Of a stretch of DNA of 64,000 nt, positions 45,159 through 50,800 are shown one piece after another. Location of the stretch: NCBI RefSeq assembly GCF_000381925.1, contig NZ_KB907308.1:372001-436000 (forward strand), given 5' to 3'. The notes beneath the pieces were generated by a model. The model was not told the origin of the DNA and did not search any database. It saw nothing but the letters and a program-made list of their open reading frames with translations. A program made the position numbers and the translations under genes. Origin of the DNA: Nocardia sp. BMG111209 (GTDB lineage Bacteria > Actinomycetota > Actinomycetes > Mycobacteriales > Mycobacteriaceae). The first letter of the stretch is position 1; every line of letters starts with the position of its first letter.

Positions 45159-45380
45159 GTCACCAACGTAGGGAGAGTTGCTCTCCATCGGGAAGTAGGC
45201 ACCTCGAGGTGCGTACCACACCCGGGCGTAGGAACGGGTCCCATGGCGGCCACGGACGACGGATATCGGAACCTCGGCCGCACAACGGGGTTCGGACGCC
45301 GGTCGCGAGGCGATCGAGGCGTCCGACCGGCATCGTCCTCGTCGTCTCCGGCCTGCGAAGGCAGTGCCGTTACGCCGTCC

Positions 45381-45723
45381 GGTGTCGGTGCCGTCCGACA
45401 CGAGCACTACCGCGACCCGGTCCGGTTTGGGCCGCAGCCGACGCGAGCAGTTCCGTGACCCGGCCCGGTGTCGGCGCCAGCCGAGGAGAGCAGTGCCGCG
45501 ACCGGCCCGGTATCGGCGTCAGCTGACGAGAGCAGTGCCGCGACCGGCCGGGTGTCGGCGCCCAGCCGACACGAGCAGTTCCGTGACCCGGCCCGGTGTC
45601 GGCACCCGTCGACGGGAGCAGTGCCGCGACCGGCCCGGTCTCGGCGCCCGTCCGACGCGAGCAGTACCGTGACCCGGTCCGGTCTCGGCGCCAGCCGACG
45701 AGAACAATGCCATGGCCCGGTCC
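45381..45723. repeat. Eight tandem copies of a 42-44-bp repeat
   Basis: Unit starts at 45381, 45424, 45467, 45509, 45551, 45595, 45637 and 45681. Each reads like GGTGTCGGCGCCAGCCGAC, then GAGCAGTnCCG, then a GACCCGGCCC end, with unit lengths of 42-44. The first part forms an inverted repeat (fifth copy: GTGTCGGC-gccca-GCCGACAC). Units are not multiples of three, so it is not a coding repeat. The whole gap 45159-45853 has no convincing gene. The array ends 130 bp before the next start. Confidence 0.9.
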
Positions 45724-45853
45724 GGTTGCGCAGAGTTGTCCGGGCCGACATCGACAGTTCGGCGGTAGCGGTCGCGCGACGGCGGCGAATCGGGTATGCC
45801 GGTGTGGTGCGGATCGATGTGACACCCGGCGCGGGTGCGGGGGTGGGTGGATC

Positions 45854-46867
45854 ATGATATGTCCGCACTGCCATCAGAATGTGTTGCGCAAGGAACGGAC
45901 CGGGCGGCGCTGCTCGAAATGCCGGAAGGTGTTCGCGCTCGAGCCCAAGGAGAGCCCGCTCGGGATGCACGATGTGCGGCTGCACAAACTGGCCGAGCAA
46001 CTCGGGGACGGCCGCGGGCTGGCCTATACGATCACCCAGCTCTGGTACGCGGCCGGGCGCAAGAAGCTGCCGGATCCCCGATCGCGAGTGACCGGTATCC
46101 GATTCGGCGTTTCCGTGCCGATCGTGATCCTCGGTTTCTTCGCCATGATCTCGCGGCTGGTACCGCCCGCGGTCGGCATCCTCGCGGTCGTGGTGCTGGT
46201 GGTGGCGGTCCAGATCGTGATCTCGGTGCGGCGACAGCGCATCATGGATTCGGTGCAGATCCGGATTCCGGTGGACTTCAAGACTTTTCAGCGTGAGGTG
46301 GCGCAGCGCTGGGCCGGTGTCTACAGATTTCCGCCGCCGGGCTCGGTGGACGAATCCCTGGCACTGCCGCCGCCGGTGCCGCGGCCGCGCTTCGCGGTGC
46401 TCTGCCCGGAGCGCAGCGTGCTCACCTGCCTCGCCGCCAATCACGCGACCCAGCGGCACGATCTGGCGCTGGCACAGCGAATCGACCAGGTACCGCCCGC
46501 GATTCCGGTCATCGTGTTGCACGATGCGAGCCTGCCCGCCCTGCGATTCGCCGACCAGGTCCGGGCACAACTGGCGCCACGTCCGGTGCTGAACCAGATG
46601 TCGCCGCGAACGGTACTCGCCAAGGGCGGCCTGCTGCGCCTGCGGACCAAGCCGCCGGCACCGGAGGAACTGGCCGCGGCGCCGCGAAACGTGTTGTCGC
46701 AGGAGGAGTTCGACTGGCTGGCCGCCGGCTGCTGGTCGCCGATCGCGGCGCTGCCGCCGGCCCGGCTGCTGGCGTTGGTGGACAAGGCCGTCGATCGTAT
46801 CGAGCAGGCGACCGATCCCGATCGGCGCCGGGCTCGCGCGGTCGGCTTCCTCAGCTGGCCGGCGTGA
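45854..46867 (+). CDS. Zinc-ribbon membrane protein, diverged paralog of the next gene
   Basis: Protein of 337 residues. A zinc ribbon opens it (Cys3, Cys6, Cys20, Cys23). Then comes a winged-helix-like segment with TITQLWYAAGRKKLP (Tyr65), two membrane helices (82-98, 104-124), a strand FAVLCPERSVL, and VIVLHDASLP with Asp224. The C-terminus is GFLSWPA. From residue 40 on it can be aligned by eye with the next gene along the whole length: TxxQL[WY]YxAxR, a [V]P-V-xxxxFxR block, LxCxxxSVxxxLxAN, VLHDA and GFL[ST]WPA. The membrane pair is an insertion. Function unknown. Stop and next start overlap (TGATG). Confidence 0.8.
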   Translation: MICPHCHQNVLRKERTGRRCSKCRKVFALEPKESPLGMHDVRLHKLAEQLGDGRGLAYTITQLWYAAGRKKLPDPRSRVTGIRFGVSVPIVILGFFAMISRLVPPAVGILAVVVLVVAVQIVISVRRQRIMDSVQIRIPVDFKTFQREVAQRWAGVYRFPPPGSVDESLALPPPVPRPRFAVLCPERSVLTCLAANHATQRHDLALAQRIDQVPPAIPVIVLHDASLPALRFADQVRAQLAPRPVLNQMSPRTVLAKGGLLRLRTKPPAPEELAAAPRNVLSQEEFDWLAAGCWSPIAALPPARLLALVDKAVDRIEQATDPDRRRARAVGFLSWPA

Positions 46868-47676
46868 TGCGGGACCGGGTACCGGATCGGCTGCTGCGCA
46901 TCGCGATCGAGCGTGCCGGTGCGCCGAACGGGTTGTGGTTCACCGAACGTCAGTTGTACTACCAGGCATGCCGGGTGGCGCTGCCGGTACACCGGCTGCC
47001 GCACCGGATCACCCGTACCTTCCCGGTTCCGTTGCGCTACGAGGTGTTTCGCCGGGCGCTGGAGCGGTACGGCGCGGTACCGGGACTGCTCGCGCCGCAA
47101 CCGCCGCGCACCGGCCCGGCGGGCCGGCACACCCCGGAACCGGATCTGTTCGACTACGGCCTGCCGCGGCTGCTGGTCTGCCAATCCGATTCGGTCGCAC
47201 AGATGTTGCGCGCCAACGCCGTTCCGATGGAATCGGCGTGCCCCGTGGTGAGCGCGGCGGAACTGCCGCTGGATCCGCGGATGACGGCCATGCTGGGCCG
47301 CGTCGAGCGGTCCGCGGTGTACGTGCTGCACGATGCCGGCGCCGAGGGCCACGACTTTCCCGCGCGCGTCGCCGAACTCACGGATATCCCGGAAGGCGTA
47401 CGGCTGGTGCCGCTGGGCCTGCGCGCGAATCAGGCCGCCCGCCTGCACGCCTTCCATCGGCGTGGCGAATCACGGCCGGTGGCAGCGGAACTCGATCCCT
47501 GGGAGCGCGCCTGGCTGGCGCGTGGCCGGTTCGTCGAGGTGGAGGCGGTCCGCCCGGCCGCACTGCTGCGCACGGTGCACCGGCTCGTGCGCGACATCCG
47601 CCGCCCGCCGCGGACCGTGGTCGGCGAGTGGCGCCGAGCCCGCGAAAGCGGCTTCCTGACCTGGCCCGCGGCATGA
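46867..47676 (+). CDS. Unknown protein resembling topoisomerase VI-A/Spo11 layout
   Basis: Soluble protein of 269 residues, a paralog of the preceding gene without zinc ribbon or membrane helices. Residues 22-40 (GLWFTERQLYYQACRVALP) look like the winged-helix region of topoisomerase VI-A/Spo11, where the second Tyr of an R-x-x-YY motif attacks DNA; here that is Tyr32. Residues 101-117 and 150-168 (VYVLHDAGAEGHDFPARV) resemble a Toprim core, but the usual Glu and the second Asp of DxD are missing. Either the activity is lost or the likeness is only structural. The GTG at 46864 is an alternative start. Confidence 0.75.
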   Translation: MRDRVPDRLLRIAIERAGAPNGLWFTERQLYYQACRVALPVHRLPHRITRTFPVPLRYEVFRRALERYGAVPGLLAPQPPRTGPAGRHTPEPDLFDYGLPRLLVCQSDSVAQMLRANAVPMESACPVVSAAELPLDPRMTAMLGRVERSAVYVLHDAGAEGHDFPARVAELTDIPEGVRLVPLGLRANQAARLHAFHRRGESRPVAAELDPWERAWLARGRFVEVEAVRPAALLRTVHRLVRDIRRPPRTVVGEWRRARESGFLTWPAA

Positions 47677-47787
47677 GCGGTCAGGGGGCGGAGGCGGCAG
47701 CGGAGCGTCACCACGCAGGCCCCCCACTCGTGCCCGATCGACACAGCATGAGCGGTGCCGACAGATCTTGGAGGAGAGGGGCCGACG

Positions 47788-48270
47788 ATGCCGGTGCACC
47801 GGCAGATCACCTATACCGATGAACTGCTCGCCGACGGCACCGCGCACCGGCGCTACTCCGACGGCCGTGAGGAGTGGCGCAACCGGACCCCGGCGGGAAC
47901 GGTGTCGTGGCAGGACAGTCAGGGCAATGCCGGTGTCGACGAGCCGCTGGGCAAGGCGCTGGTGAAGCGCACCTTCCGGGACGGCCGGGTGGTGTACGGA
48001 CGGGAGGGTGGCTACGGCCGGACCCTGTGGAGCGGTGGGGTTCTCACCGTCAACCGGTCCTCGTTCGGCGGCCGGGTCGGCATCATCCTCGCGGCGGTGG
48101 CCGGTGGCGCGCTGCTGACCGCGATGGCGATGCCGCCGGATGTCCTCACCGCGGAGCAGGAGGAGGAACTGCGCCGGCAGGCGGCGGGTCAGCAGTCGAG
48201 TTCCGACGGCGGTTCCGACGACAGCGGCTGGGGCGACGACTCCGGCGACGACAGCGGCGATTTCGGCTGA
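47788..48270 (+). CDS. Small membrane protein with Asp/Ser/Gly-rich C-terminal tail
   Basis: Protein of 160 residues. Residues 1-105 are soluble and rich in Tyr-x-Asp-Gly turns (ADGTAHRRYSDGREEW, FRDGRVVYGREGGYG). One membrane helix follows (VGIILAAVAGGALLTAMA, about 108-125), then a charged helix, then a 24-residue tail with eight Asp and no basic residue (ending GDDSGDFG). GGAGGAGAGGGG precedes the ATG at 47788. It lies 111 bp after the previous gene and only 8 bp before the asparagine-synthetase-like gene, so the two are almost certainly co-expressed. Family not recognised. Confidence 0.8.
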   Translation: MPVHRQITYTDELLADGTAHRRYSDGREEWRNRTPAGTVSWQDSQGNAGVDEPLGKALVKRTFRDGRVVYGREGGYGRTLWSGGVLTVNRSSFGGRVGIILAAVAGGALLTAMAMPPDVLTAEQEEELRRQAAGQQSSSDGGSDDSGWGDDSGDDSGDFG

Positions 48271-48278
48271 GGGGCAGG

Positions 48279-50021
48279 ATGTCTCGCTGGTGTGCGATTC
48301 TCGGTACGGACGATCCGGCCGGCCGGATCCGAGCGCTCGGTGGTGAGCCGGTCGCGGTGACCGGCCGGTACGCGCTGGGCACGGTCCCCGGCGCCGGCGC
48401 CCACGCGGAACTGTTCCGGGCCCGGAACCCGTCCCGTGCAGCCGATCTGGTGGCGATCGGCGAGGTGACGCTGTACAACGCCGACCGGTTGCGGACCCGG
48501 CTCGGCGCCGCCGCCCCGCCGCGTGATTGCGGCGACGGCGAACTGCTGCTGCACTGCTACGCCCACCTCGGACTCGACGGAATCGCCGCGGCGGACGGCA
48601 TTTTCGCGCTCGCCATCGCCGACGGCGAGGATCTGCTGCTGGTGCGCGACCATGTCGGCGGCCGGACCCTCTTCCACGCCCGGTCCGGCGGCGCCTGGGC
48701 GGCGTCGACCTCGCTGCGCGCGCTCACCCGCTGGCCGGATCTGCGCACCGGCCTGAATCTGCCCGCGGTGCAATCGTTCCTGAGCTTCGCCTATCTGCCG
48801 GGCCGGGACACCCTGCTGCGCGACGTGTACGAGGTGCTGCCGGGCCGCTGTGTCCGGCTGCGGCCCGACGGCTCCTCGTCGGAGGAGATCTATTGGGAGC
48901 CGCGCGAATTCGAGGAGGACGGACCGGCCGGCGGATTCGCCCGTGGGTTGCGGGAATTGCTGGAGGACGCCACGGCCCGGCGGCTGCCCGCCGGGGAACC
49001 GGTCGGGGTGCTGTTGTCCGGCGGCGTCGACTCGAGTCTGGTGACCGCGCTGGCGGCCAAACTGCACGACCATCCGGTGCGCACCTACTCGATCAGCTTC
49101 GGCGACACCATGCCGAACGAACTCGCCTACTCGGGACTCGTTGCGGCTCATTGTCATACCCGGCACCGGGTGCTCACCGTCTCCGGCGAGGCGGTGGCGG
49201 CCCGGCTCGCGGAGACCATGGGGTTGCTGGACTGCCCGGTCGGCGATCCGCTCACCGTGCCGAATCTGATGCTGGCCGAGGCGGTTTCCGCCGACGGCGC
49301 CCGGGTGGTGCTCAACGGGGAGGGCGGCGACCCGGTGTTCGGCGGCCCCAAGAACCTGCCGATGCTGATCTTCGAACTGGCCCGGGACGATCCGGATCCG
49401 CGCGCCCGCGCGCAGGCCTATCTGGACAGTTACCGGAAATGTCATGCCGACCTGCCGGTGCTGCTGAGTCCGGAGGTCCGGGCCGCACTGGCCGACGCGC
49501 CGCCGCTCACCGACGTCTTCACGCCGTATCTGCGGCAGGGGCAGATGCGCGGCCTGCTCAACCAGTTGCTGCACGCGAATCTGCGCACCAAGGGGGCGCA
49601 CCACATCCTGTCGAAGGTGGAGCGCATCACCACCGCGGCGGGCGTGCAGGGCCGGTCGCCGCTGTTCGACCGCGCGGTGATCGACTACTCCTTCCGGGTG
49701 CCGCCGCGCTACAAGCTCGCCGGGACGAGCGAGAAGTGGATCCTGAAACAGGCCGTGCGCGACCTGCTTCCGGCCACCATCATCGATCGCCCGAAGAGCG
49801 GGATGCGAGTTCCGGTGCAGCAGTGGCTCGCCGGACCGTTGCGCGAACTCGGCCGCGATCTGTTGCTGGGGCGATCGGCGCGGGCCCGGGGCCTGTTCCG
49901 GGAGGACACCATCCGCGCCTGGCTGGAGGGCCGCGGCACACTGCTGCCCAGGCAGGGCGGCAAGCTCTGGCTGGTGCTGTCGCTGGAGCTGTGGTTGCGT
50001 TCCTTCGAGGTCGGCCCCTGA
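48279..50021 (+). CDS. Asparagine-synthetase-like amidotransferase lacking Cys2
   Basis: Protein of 580 residues with the two-domain layout of AsnB. The N-terminal glutaminase-like domain begins MSRWCAILGT, so the Cys that should be residue 2 is residue 5 and cannot be the N-terminal nucleophile without extra processing. The C-terminal ATP-pyrophosphatase domain is intact: LLSGGVDSSLV (247-252), LNGEGGDPVFGG and KWILKQAVRDLLP. Loss of Cys2 is known in beta-lactam synthetase and other ANL-independent amide-forming relatives. It may use ammonia or an amine on an unusual carboxylate. Coupled to the small membrane gene upstream and a cupin-like gene downstream. Confidence 0.88.
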   Translation: MSRWCAILGTDDPAGRIRALGGEPVAVTGRYALGTVPGAGAHAELFRARNPSRAADLVAIGEVTLYNADRLRTRLGAAAPPRDCGDGELLLHCYAHLGLDGIAAADGIFALAIADGEDLLLVRDHVGGRTLFHARSGGAWAASTSLRALTRWPDLRTGLNLPAVQSFLSFAYLPGRDTLLRDVYEVLPGRCVRLRPDGSSSEEIYWEPREFEEDGPAGGFARGLRELLEDATARRLPAGEPVGVLLSGGVDSSLVTALAAKLHDHPVRTYSISFGDTMPNELAYSGLVAAHCHTRHRVLTVSGEAVAARLAETMGLLDCPVGDPLTVPNLMLAEAVSADGARVVLNGEGGDPVFGGPKNLPMLIFELARDDPDPRARAQAYLDSYRKCHADLPVLLSPEVRAALADAPPLTDVFTPYLRQGQMRGLLNQLLHANLRTKGAHHILSKVERITTAAGVQGRSPLFDRAVIDYSFRVPPRYKLAGTSEKWILKQAVRDLLPATIIDRPKSGMRVPVQQWLAGPLRELGRDLLLGRSARARGLFREDTIRAWLEGRGTLLPRQGGKLWLVLSLELWLRSFEVGP

Positions 50022-50059
50022 TCGGGCCGGCACCGATCCAGACGCGAGGAGTTCGCCGC

Positions 50060-50800
50060 ATGCCGCAGCCACGCATCAAGCACACGGCCGACGACGAGAA
50101 CGAGGTCCACGACGTCGGCGGTTTCGCCGACGCGGGCCGCTGCGTCGTGACCCCGGTGGTGCGGTTCCCGGCCGGGGTGGCACTGGCCGTGGTGCAGGCG
50201 TTCGCGGCGATCGTGCAGCGCGCCAAGACCTCTCACGTCGCGACCACCCCCGACGCGGACGGTGTGGTGCGCTCCCAGACCTTCGAGGAGGGCGACGTCT
50301 ACATGATCGAGAAGCCCTTCGACGGCTATGTCGCCGACCGCTATCTGATGGATTTCTACGACGTCGCCGAGCGCGACATCTGCTCGCGCATGCATCTGCA
50401 CACCGGGCTGCGCTTCGTCCGCATGATGACCGGACCGGACACCCGGATCCGGGTCGGCAGCCTGTCCCCCTTCGAGATCACCCACGTCGAGGGCGTGACC
50501 CCGTTCCGGCCCGAGGTGTTCGCCGACGACCTGCCCGACACCCCGCCCGGCGTCCACCGGATCCGCCACAACCTGATCGTGCCGCCGTGCTCGTTCGTCG
50601 ATATGCAGATCCCGCGCGGCACCAGCCATCAGTTCAACGCCGTCGGCCCGCACGCGGTGATCGACTCCGTCCATCCGGAGGAGTCGATCGAGGTGTTCCG
50701 CGAACGGATGTCCGGCTATCGGATGATGGCGCAGACGGTCTTCCTGGCCGATACCCTGCCGCCCGCCGCCAGCTGCCTGGCAACGTTGCCGGACGCGTGA
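50060..50800 (+). CDS. Cupin-like protein of unknown function
   Basis: Protein of 246 residues, beta-rich, with no signal peptide. Segments such as RDICSRMHLHTGLRFVRMMTGPDTRIRVGSLS and RIRHNLIVPPCSFVDMQIPRGTSHQFNAVGPHAVIDSVHPEES look like the two halves of a cupin barrel with potential His ligands. GAGGAG lies 9 nt before the ATG. The gene follows the asparagine-synthetase-like gene by 38 bp and is likely its operon partner. The cupin assignment is from pattern only. Confidence 0.7.
   Translation: MPQPRIKHTADDENEVHDVGGFADAGRCVVTPVVRFPAGVALAVVQAFAAIVQRAKTSHVATTPDADGVVRSQTFEEGDVYMIEKPFDGYVADRYLMDFYDVAERDICSRMHLHTGLRFVRMMTGPDTRIRVGSLSPFEITHVEGVTPFRPEVFADDLPDTPPGVHRIRHNLIVPPCSFVDMQIPRGTSHQFNAVGPHAVIDSVHPEESIEVFRERMSGYRMMAQTVFLADTLPPAASCLATLPDA

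Follow-up and report, generated by a model that had tools for sequence, protein, structure and literature searches.

To our knowledge, the described uses of the topoisomerase VI-A (Top6A)/Spo11 core, namely topoisomerase VI, the meiotic breaks and the Wadjet nucleases (JetD/MksG), all act on DNA. In topoisomerase VI-A and Spo11, a Toprim domain (PF21180) is joined to a winged helix (PF04406) that carries a Tyr motif, of which we take the second Tyr to be the catalytic one. According to one account, the catalytic residues are present in all topoisomerase VI-A/Spo11 members with one exception, in that plant SPO11-2, and at times protist proteins, have an Asn for the second Asp (PMC11302465). Here, we describe a locus in Nocardia sp. 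BMG111209, analyzed within a stretch of 64,000 nucleotides of contig NZ_KB907308.1 (hereafter, the window), where two adjacent proteins, A and B, probably form a diverged, catalytically degenerate family inside the topoisomerase VI-A/Spo11/JetD superfamily, judging from sequence profiles and predicted models. The genes open a five-gene module, A-B-M-N-C (45854-50800; Table 1), a setting that was absent from the original prediction of a Top6A/Spo11-like pair. The building blocks of this module are known folds and the novelty lies in the system as a whole; specifically, our literature searches found no description of a Spo11-like pair combined with a predicted amide ligase and a C-terminal Phe-Gly (FG) tail.

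Table 1. Genes and features of the module, in window positions
Feature	Position	Strand	Description or basis
Gene A, 337 aa	45854..46867	+	Zinc ribbon, TxxQLWY motif, two membrane helices, degenerate Top6A-type Toprim, C-terminal GFLSWPA
Zinc ribbon of A (Cys 3, 6, 20, 23)	45854..45937	+	Cys invariant in 31-row alignment
Winged-helix-type Tyr motif of A, TITQLWYAAGR	46028..46060	+	Sequence and column counts
Two membrane helices of A, residues 75-99 and 105-125	46076..46228	+	Predicted model and hydropathy
Toprim domain of A, residues 168-322	46355..46819	+	VIA-align range and column counts
Gene B, 269 aa	46867..47676	+	Soluble paralog of A; TERQLYY motif, degenerate Top6A-type Toprim, C-terminal GFLTWPA
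Winged-helix-type Tyr motif of B, TERQLYYQACR (Tyr31, Tyr32)	46942..46974	+	Column counts; aligned with FSARDLYY of L128
Toprim domain of B, residues 82-245	47110..47601	+	VIA-align and column counts
Gene M, 160 aa	47788..48270	+	Predicted single-span membrane protein with acidic tail
Asp/Ser/Gly-rich tail of M, DFG at exact C-terminus	48196..48267	+	Counts of DFG ends among M proteins
Gene N, 580 aa	48279..50021	+	Asparagine-synthetase-like, PF00733 E 1.7e-76; degenerate glutaminase half, no Cys2
Gene C, 246 aa	50060..50800	+	Kept along with the module; resembles a cupin by eye (HLHTG...SHQF)

Paralogs A and B and the topoisomerase VI-A core

A and B are true paralogs, above chance, as had been proposed from an alignment of the two by eye. 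Their Smith-Waterman score of 105 was reached by 0 of 1000 shuffles (maximum, 65), the two families aligned profile to profile with a probability of 99.7 and an E-value of 8.6e-26 (columns 12-281 of B with 36-338 of A), and a plain search with B recovered the adjacent A orthologs at E-values down to 1.6e-9. The shared elements on which the proposal had been built were largely recovered, including the first motif (TITQLWYAAGR in A and TERQLYYQACR in B), a further shared stretch (CPERSVLTCLAAN in A and CQSDSVAQMLRAN in B), the VLHDA strand in both proteins, and the GFLSWPA-type C-termini; a P-V-x4-F-x-R block assigned to both is exact in A, whereas B reads PLRYEVFRR. Only A carries the zinc ribbon, with its four Cys, and the two membrane helices, both of which had been recognized earlier, and hydropathy placed a hydrophobic segment in 32 of 32 A-family rows. 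The stop of A and the start of B overlap as TGATG, also as first described, and we therefore place the start of B at the ATG at 46867; a GTG lies in frame one codon upstream (46864). The pair is kept together, with A beside B in 31 of the 32 loci examined, loci that had themselves been retrieved with B. Directly upstream of A, there is a 43-bp tandem repeat array (45361-45726; ~8.5 copies, 77% matches), and sigma-70 and terminator scans found nothing.

The relationship of the pair to Top6A emerges from fold comparison and from profiles of relatives. For the predicted model of B, the nine best VIA-align entries were all Top6A, JetD/MksG or Spo11, as were 9 of the 10 best entries for A, in each case over the Toprim half. 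Foldseek searches with both models gave no E-value under 0.001, and the fold claim therefore rests on VIA-align and the profiles. That A and B of the window, on their own, match no Top6A profile counts against a Top6A reading. Specifically, PF21180 was unmatched by either protein, by any of the 32 B-family members and by anything in the genome that carries the window; hhalign comparisons of the A1 and A2 profiles alone with Top6A were not significant; and searches of these two profiles against the PDB yielded best matches of only E 0.86 or worse.

By sequence, the link to Top6A runs through relatives. The single Spo11-like protein of locus L059 passes PF21180 (26.9 bits vs a cut-off of 24.1), those of L067, L066, L094 and L105 match it below the cut-off, and those of L065, L112, L160, L108 and L162a do not match it. 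The A3 profile (8 rows) matches the Sulfolobus Top6A 2zbk_A (E 1.4e-4), with DADPYG aligned to HDaapeg, and the A4 profile (32 rows) aligns with nine bacterial Top6A over 72 columns, all of them Toprim (hhalign probability 90.9, E 1.1e-6). Of these nine, L171 was confirmed by PF21180 and PF04406, and the others, in the same alignment, are 65-82% identical to L165. Topoisomerase VI-A genes at L165-L173, from the phylum of genome G448, are themselves weak matches of the same profile. Further, the actinobacterial protein of L128 serves as a bridge between B and the Top6A family: it passes PF21180 at 30.3 bits, with VEKE and HDAD intact, and aligns with B over residues 13-193 (blastp E 8e-8; 0 of 1000 shuffles), a span that takes in both FTERQLYY and the Toprim regions.

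The Toprim core of the original prediction is thus borne out by fold, by the PF21180 matches of relatives, and by the profile matches to Sulfolobus and bacterial Top6A. For the Tyr-bearing winged helix, the motif and the alignment of B with L128 agree with what was proposed, but the fold search covered the Toprim half only. Column counts placed Tyr31 in 32 of 32 rows of B and Tyr32 in 30 of 32, and a Tyr motif, TKR(E/D)AYY, is visible in the bacterial Top6A sequences. L128 (7181-8437) and L129 (1948-3237) are actinobacterial proteins of ~420 aa with intact Top6A-type Glu, HDAD and FSARDL(Y/F)Y; they have no asparagine-synthetase neighbor within the stretch fetched and are possibly an active stand-alone Top6A-like family. 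A search for viral relatives of a Top6A fragment found none.

The Toprim metal triad, a Glu plus DxD, is broken in both families (column counts over 32 rows each). In B, the Glu position is E in 21 rows, Q in 5 (including Gln106 of the window), R in 5 and G in 1, and the first Asp is D in 27 (D156 in the window), E in 4 and R in 1, while the second Asp is present in 0 of 32 (Gly158 in the window). In A, Glu occurs in 0 of 32 rows, the first Asp in 32 of 32 (D224), and the second in 1 of 32 (Ser226), so that the loss of the second Asp, first noticed in the window proteins, extends across almost all aligned members. Given that these residues are reported from all topoisomerase VI-A/Spo11 members, apart from the second-Asp exception noted above, DNA cleavage by A and B of the window appears unlikely. 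Pfam also found no Top6B-type (GHKL ATPase) domain in M, N or C. Because both the triad and a Top6B partner are lacking, we leave A and B outside the topoisomerase VI-A and Spo11 enzymes. They share with these the Toprim fold and a preceding motif of the T-x-R-x-x-Y-Y type, but differ in the missing second Asp of DxD, in the frequent loss of the Glu, and in the zinc ribbon and membrane helices added in A. With JetD/MksG, represented by 8b7f and 7til among the best fold matches, they have the Toprim arrangement in common, but differ in the broken metal site, in their other gene neighbors, and in the lack of an SMC-type partner; no SMC, kleisin or KITE domain was found in M, N or C, the sole recurring window genes besides A and B.

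The five-gene module and its distribution

Across 32 other loci (L021 and L029-L059), B was present in 32, A, M and N in 31 each, and C in 28, where L059 matches B distantly and belongs to another branch and L021 is only 3.8 kb long. In six Streptomyces/Wenjunlia loci of the 28 with C, this gene is divergent and lies upstream of A. No window ORF wholly outside 45854-50800 (35.8-57.8 kb scanned) recurs in more than 3 of the 32 loci, whose flanks reach ~8 kb at most; the flanks therefore differ, and the unit is gained or lost whole. Over cut-off, A, B, M and C have no Pfam or NCBIfam match, and no family was found for C.

The distribution of the module is that of an accessory element. B, M and N (the last at E <= 1e-150) occur in the identical 12 of 60 relatives, all from the genus of the window, which amounts to 12 of 36 same-genus genomes, its own included. 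More widely, 6 of 394 genomes of the class contain B, and the A4 profile matched 9 of 346 genomes of the phylum, several of these by the zinc ribbon only. Among the loci compared, L131 and L132, which match the zinc ribbon only, and L068, where the match contains a stop codon and the profile found nothing, were not counted. One copy each was present on a Streptomyces and a cyanobacterial plasmid record, and no phage record matched B.

This accessory distribution, with its plasmid copies, would suit a membrane-tethered DNA-targeting system that serves defense, plasmid control or DNA uptake, where N exerts control over the binding or cutting of DNA by A and B in the manner of JetD or MksG. Although the presence of JetD and MksG among the best fold matches and the Tyr motif kept in B point the same way, we consider such a system quite unlikely in view of the broken metal triad (the second Asp missing from every B row and a Q at the Glu position of the window), the absence of SMC, nuclease or GHKL ATPase domains from M, N and C, the lack of phage matches, and PADLOC-DB, in which 0 families matched 7 proteins at E 0.1.

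Gene N and the Phe-Gly tail

Amide-forming members of the asparagine synthetase family include beta-lactam synthetase, the lasso cyclases, TsrC/ScdTA and PesC, and in beta-lactam synthetase and the lasso cyclases, the glutaminase Cys has been lost. From its Asn_synthase domain and SGGxDS ATP loop, N is a member of this superfamily: the loop SGGxDS[SG] is present in 32 of 32 N proteins aligned with that of the window and in 30 of 33 N-like ORFs, the remaining 3 reading SGGxDSA. N is not a glutamine-dependent asparagine synthetase. The window protein starts MSRWC, Cys2 is found in 0 of the 32 aligned N proteins, and the MC[GAS] start motif is found in 0 of 33 N-like ORFs scanned (of 35; L134 and L163 were left out), several of which have uncertain start sites, while an AsnB of the same genome (L175), as a control, starts MCGI in the same scan. 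Ordinary glutamine-fed amidation therefore appears unlikely. The best NCBIfam scores of N were against the N-acetylglutaminylglutamine and XrtA amidotransferase models, AsnB models were matched too, and all fell below every cut-off shown; N also scores against the lasso cyclase model NF033535 (106.3 bits vs a cut-off of 525) and the albusnodin/ikarugamycin cyclase models, again below the cut-offs.

According to a preprint, the asparagine-synthetase-like TsrC, ScdTA and PesC modify the C-terminal carboxylates of peptides, and a Glu-Tyr dyad that is shared by each of five compared enzymes is tied to carboxylate adenylation, with activity lost when the Tyr is changed and reduced when the Glu is changed (PMC13060819). 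Going by spacing, the dyad would be located in the DE-x-FGGY motif, which L176 of the genome that carries the window has. Among the N-like proteins in which this motif could be read (31 of 33; two were unmatched), 21 have DPx(F/L)GGPKN in its place and 10 have DQL(F/L)(G/A)GW, and none keeps its Glu and Tyr. N would therefore have a pocket unlike that of the relatives known to amidate peptides, and it could be inactive or act on a different substrate. In sum, N shares PF00733 and the SGGxDS loop with the amide-formers of its family, and the missing glutaminase Cys with two groups of them, but departs from them in this replaced motif and in having Spo11-like partners. In all eight loci with two N-like genes in which both motifs were read, the Spo11-like gene is flanked by one copy of each motif type; a third N is present in L162.

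The FG end proved to track N. M ends DFG in 32 of 32 loci and also in 3 of 3 further ones (L113, L133 and L134). Among 4569 ORFs of at least 60 aa from 55 loci, 52 end in FG, comprising 30 M, 17 Spo11-like (L059 and L069 being the same gene) and 5 other ORFs. The FG end occurs in 20 of 22 Spo11-like proteins with an N neighbor vs 0 of 7 without (Fisher 2.3e-5), the two exceptions being L162b and L163, which sit beside N without the FG end; set aside in this count were contig-edge rows (L096, L107 and L164) and actinobacterial rows with a separate M (the window, L113, L130, L133 and L134). The seven proteins without N include that of L065, whose contig ends ~1 kb downstream so that its context is half seen, and L128/L129, which are outgroup Top6A-like; with these two left out, the table becomes 20/2 vs 0/5 (p about 2.6e-4). 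Because the tree needs about three N-label changes, the association represents few independent events. The Spo11-like protein that lies between two N-like genes in L162 (7222-8139) reads ...LLFGPGKHRRIAAGEELD, where the FG is internal rather than terminal.

Taken with the lost glutaminase Cys and the strictly shared occurrence of the genes, the FG end suggests that N works on the tail and does not make asparagine. Within the last 20 residues, Lys is present in 1 of 20 Spo11-like and 0 of 32 M tails, a count that weighs against a Lys-based ring within the tail. Alternatively, the module could make a small amide by itself through N, with the FG end acting as a docking or stability motif and not as a substrate. 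The GFLSWPA-type ends of A and B, which resemble C-terminal docking motifs and align with the GFG ends, fit that alternative, as do the best, sub-cut-off scores of N against the N-acetylglutaminylglutamine and XrtA models; even so, with no glutaminase Cys motif in any N-like ORF scanned and with DFG kept to the very last residue of every M, it seems to us improbable, and the least probable of the readings weighed here.

Relatives outside the actinobacteria and a candidate role

Outside the actinobacteria, Spo11-like matches were found in 22 of 329 genomes of the phylum of G448, the class of G669 gave 2 of 52, neither of them new, and a further search of the phylum of G448 gave 37 of 377, nine of which match by Toprim only and are bacterial Top6A. 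In this phylum, the Spo11-like protein is mostly single, often has the zinc ribbon and membrane helices, and is often encoded next to one or two N-like genes. A plasmid of the cyanobacterium Gloeothece verrucosa PCC 7822 encodes a Spo11-like protein that ends MVQSFG, together with two asparagine-synthase-like genes and a decarboxylase. The latter, a LysA-like PLP decarboxylase between the N-like and Spo11-like genes (L112, 7094-8323), could supply an amine. In five loci (L065, L066, L093, L105 and L106), the Spo11-like protein has a zinc ribbon but lacks the FG end, and the stretch fetched contains no N-like gene.

Several other families recur beside these genes. One cupin family is present in 11 of 24 and in 5 of 23 loci, all with N; the idea that the cupins beside N elsewhere are relatives of gene C was unsupported (hhalign prob 0.3). 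Large MopE-type metal-binding proteins (PF11617) occur at L108 (9283-11841), L109 (4519-7200) and L162 (10650-12515), and a large protein at L111 (5066-7036) joins this group by similarity; such a gene comes after the cupin in that subgroup of loci where the Spo11-like protein is without zinc ribbon and membrane helices. A family of ~270 residues recurs at loci with two N-like genes; it is found at L095 (204-1025), L098 (2615-5083), L100 (10592-11350) and L101 (832-2133), and in L160 (9136-11775) it is joined to N as a C-terminal fusion. Some loci also have, at their edges, a recurring protein kinase family. Among the recurring neighbors that could be identified, part of the neighbors being annotated, we recognized neither a protease nor a transporter.

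Such neighborhoods invite comparison with RiPP-like or other natural-product pathways, where N would cyclize or amidate the variable acidic tail of M or of the Spo11-like protein, a cupin would oxidize it, and the Spo11-like fold would serve in recognition. The cupin family confined to loci with N, the cyanobacterial decarboxylase, the sub-cut-off scores of N against lasso and albusnodin/ikarugamycin cyclase models, and a patchy spread over actinobacteria, large-genome bacteria of the phylum of G448 and a cyanobacterium are all in keeping with a pathway of this type. We nonetheless judge it unlikely, as the tail is attached to larger conserved proteins in which only the last residues are kept, and as the protease and transporter are missing from the neighbors identified.

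The best explanation, which we hold tentatively and at somewhat less than an even chance, is that N acts on the FG tail, and that the Spo11-like core is a non-cutting scaffold holding the two. Specifically, the core would have been re-used without DNA cutting, tethered to the membrane by A, and would bring N and the tail together, whereupon N would spend ATP to activate the tail, at its C-terminal Gly or at an Asp within it, and couple the tail to an amine from a source other than glutamine. The carrier of the tail would be the separate membrane protein M in actinobacteria and the C-terminus of the Spo11-like protein elsewhere. Our confidence is moderate for the tail as substrate and low for the chemistry, because N is without the Glu-Tyr dyad of the known enzymes. 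Further, if the tail of M, whose topology is predicted, lies outside the cell, it would be beyond the reach of N after insertion, which speaks against this explanation.

A more specific proposal, that the ligase N charges the FG tail of a membrane-bound partner and the whole forms a protein-tagging or carrier system on a non-cleaving Spo11/topoisomerase VI-A scaffold, is possible, if doubtful. By analogy only, it recalls the LysW-type amino-group carrier proteins, which use a zinc ribbon and an acidic C-terminus as carrier; LysW differs in being small, in ending EDWGE, and in being charged by an ATP-grasp enzyme. Actinobacteria, the phylum of G448 and a cyanobacterium all have this Spo11-like fold, with a metal site that is mostly broken in the aligned members. 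If the role proposed here is true, these proteins would represent a non-DNA use of the Spo11 fold and, possibly, a new kind of peptide-tail modification.
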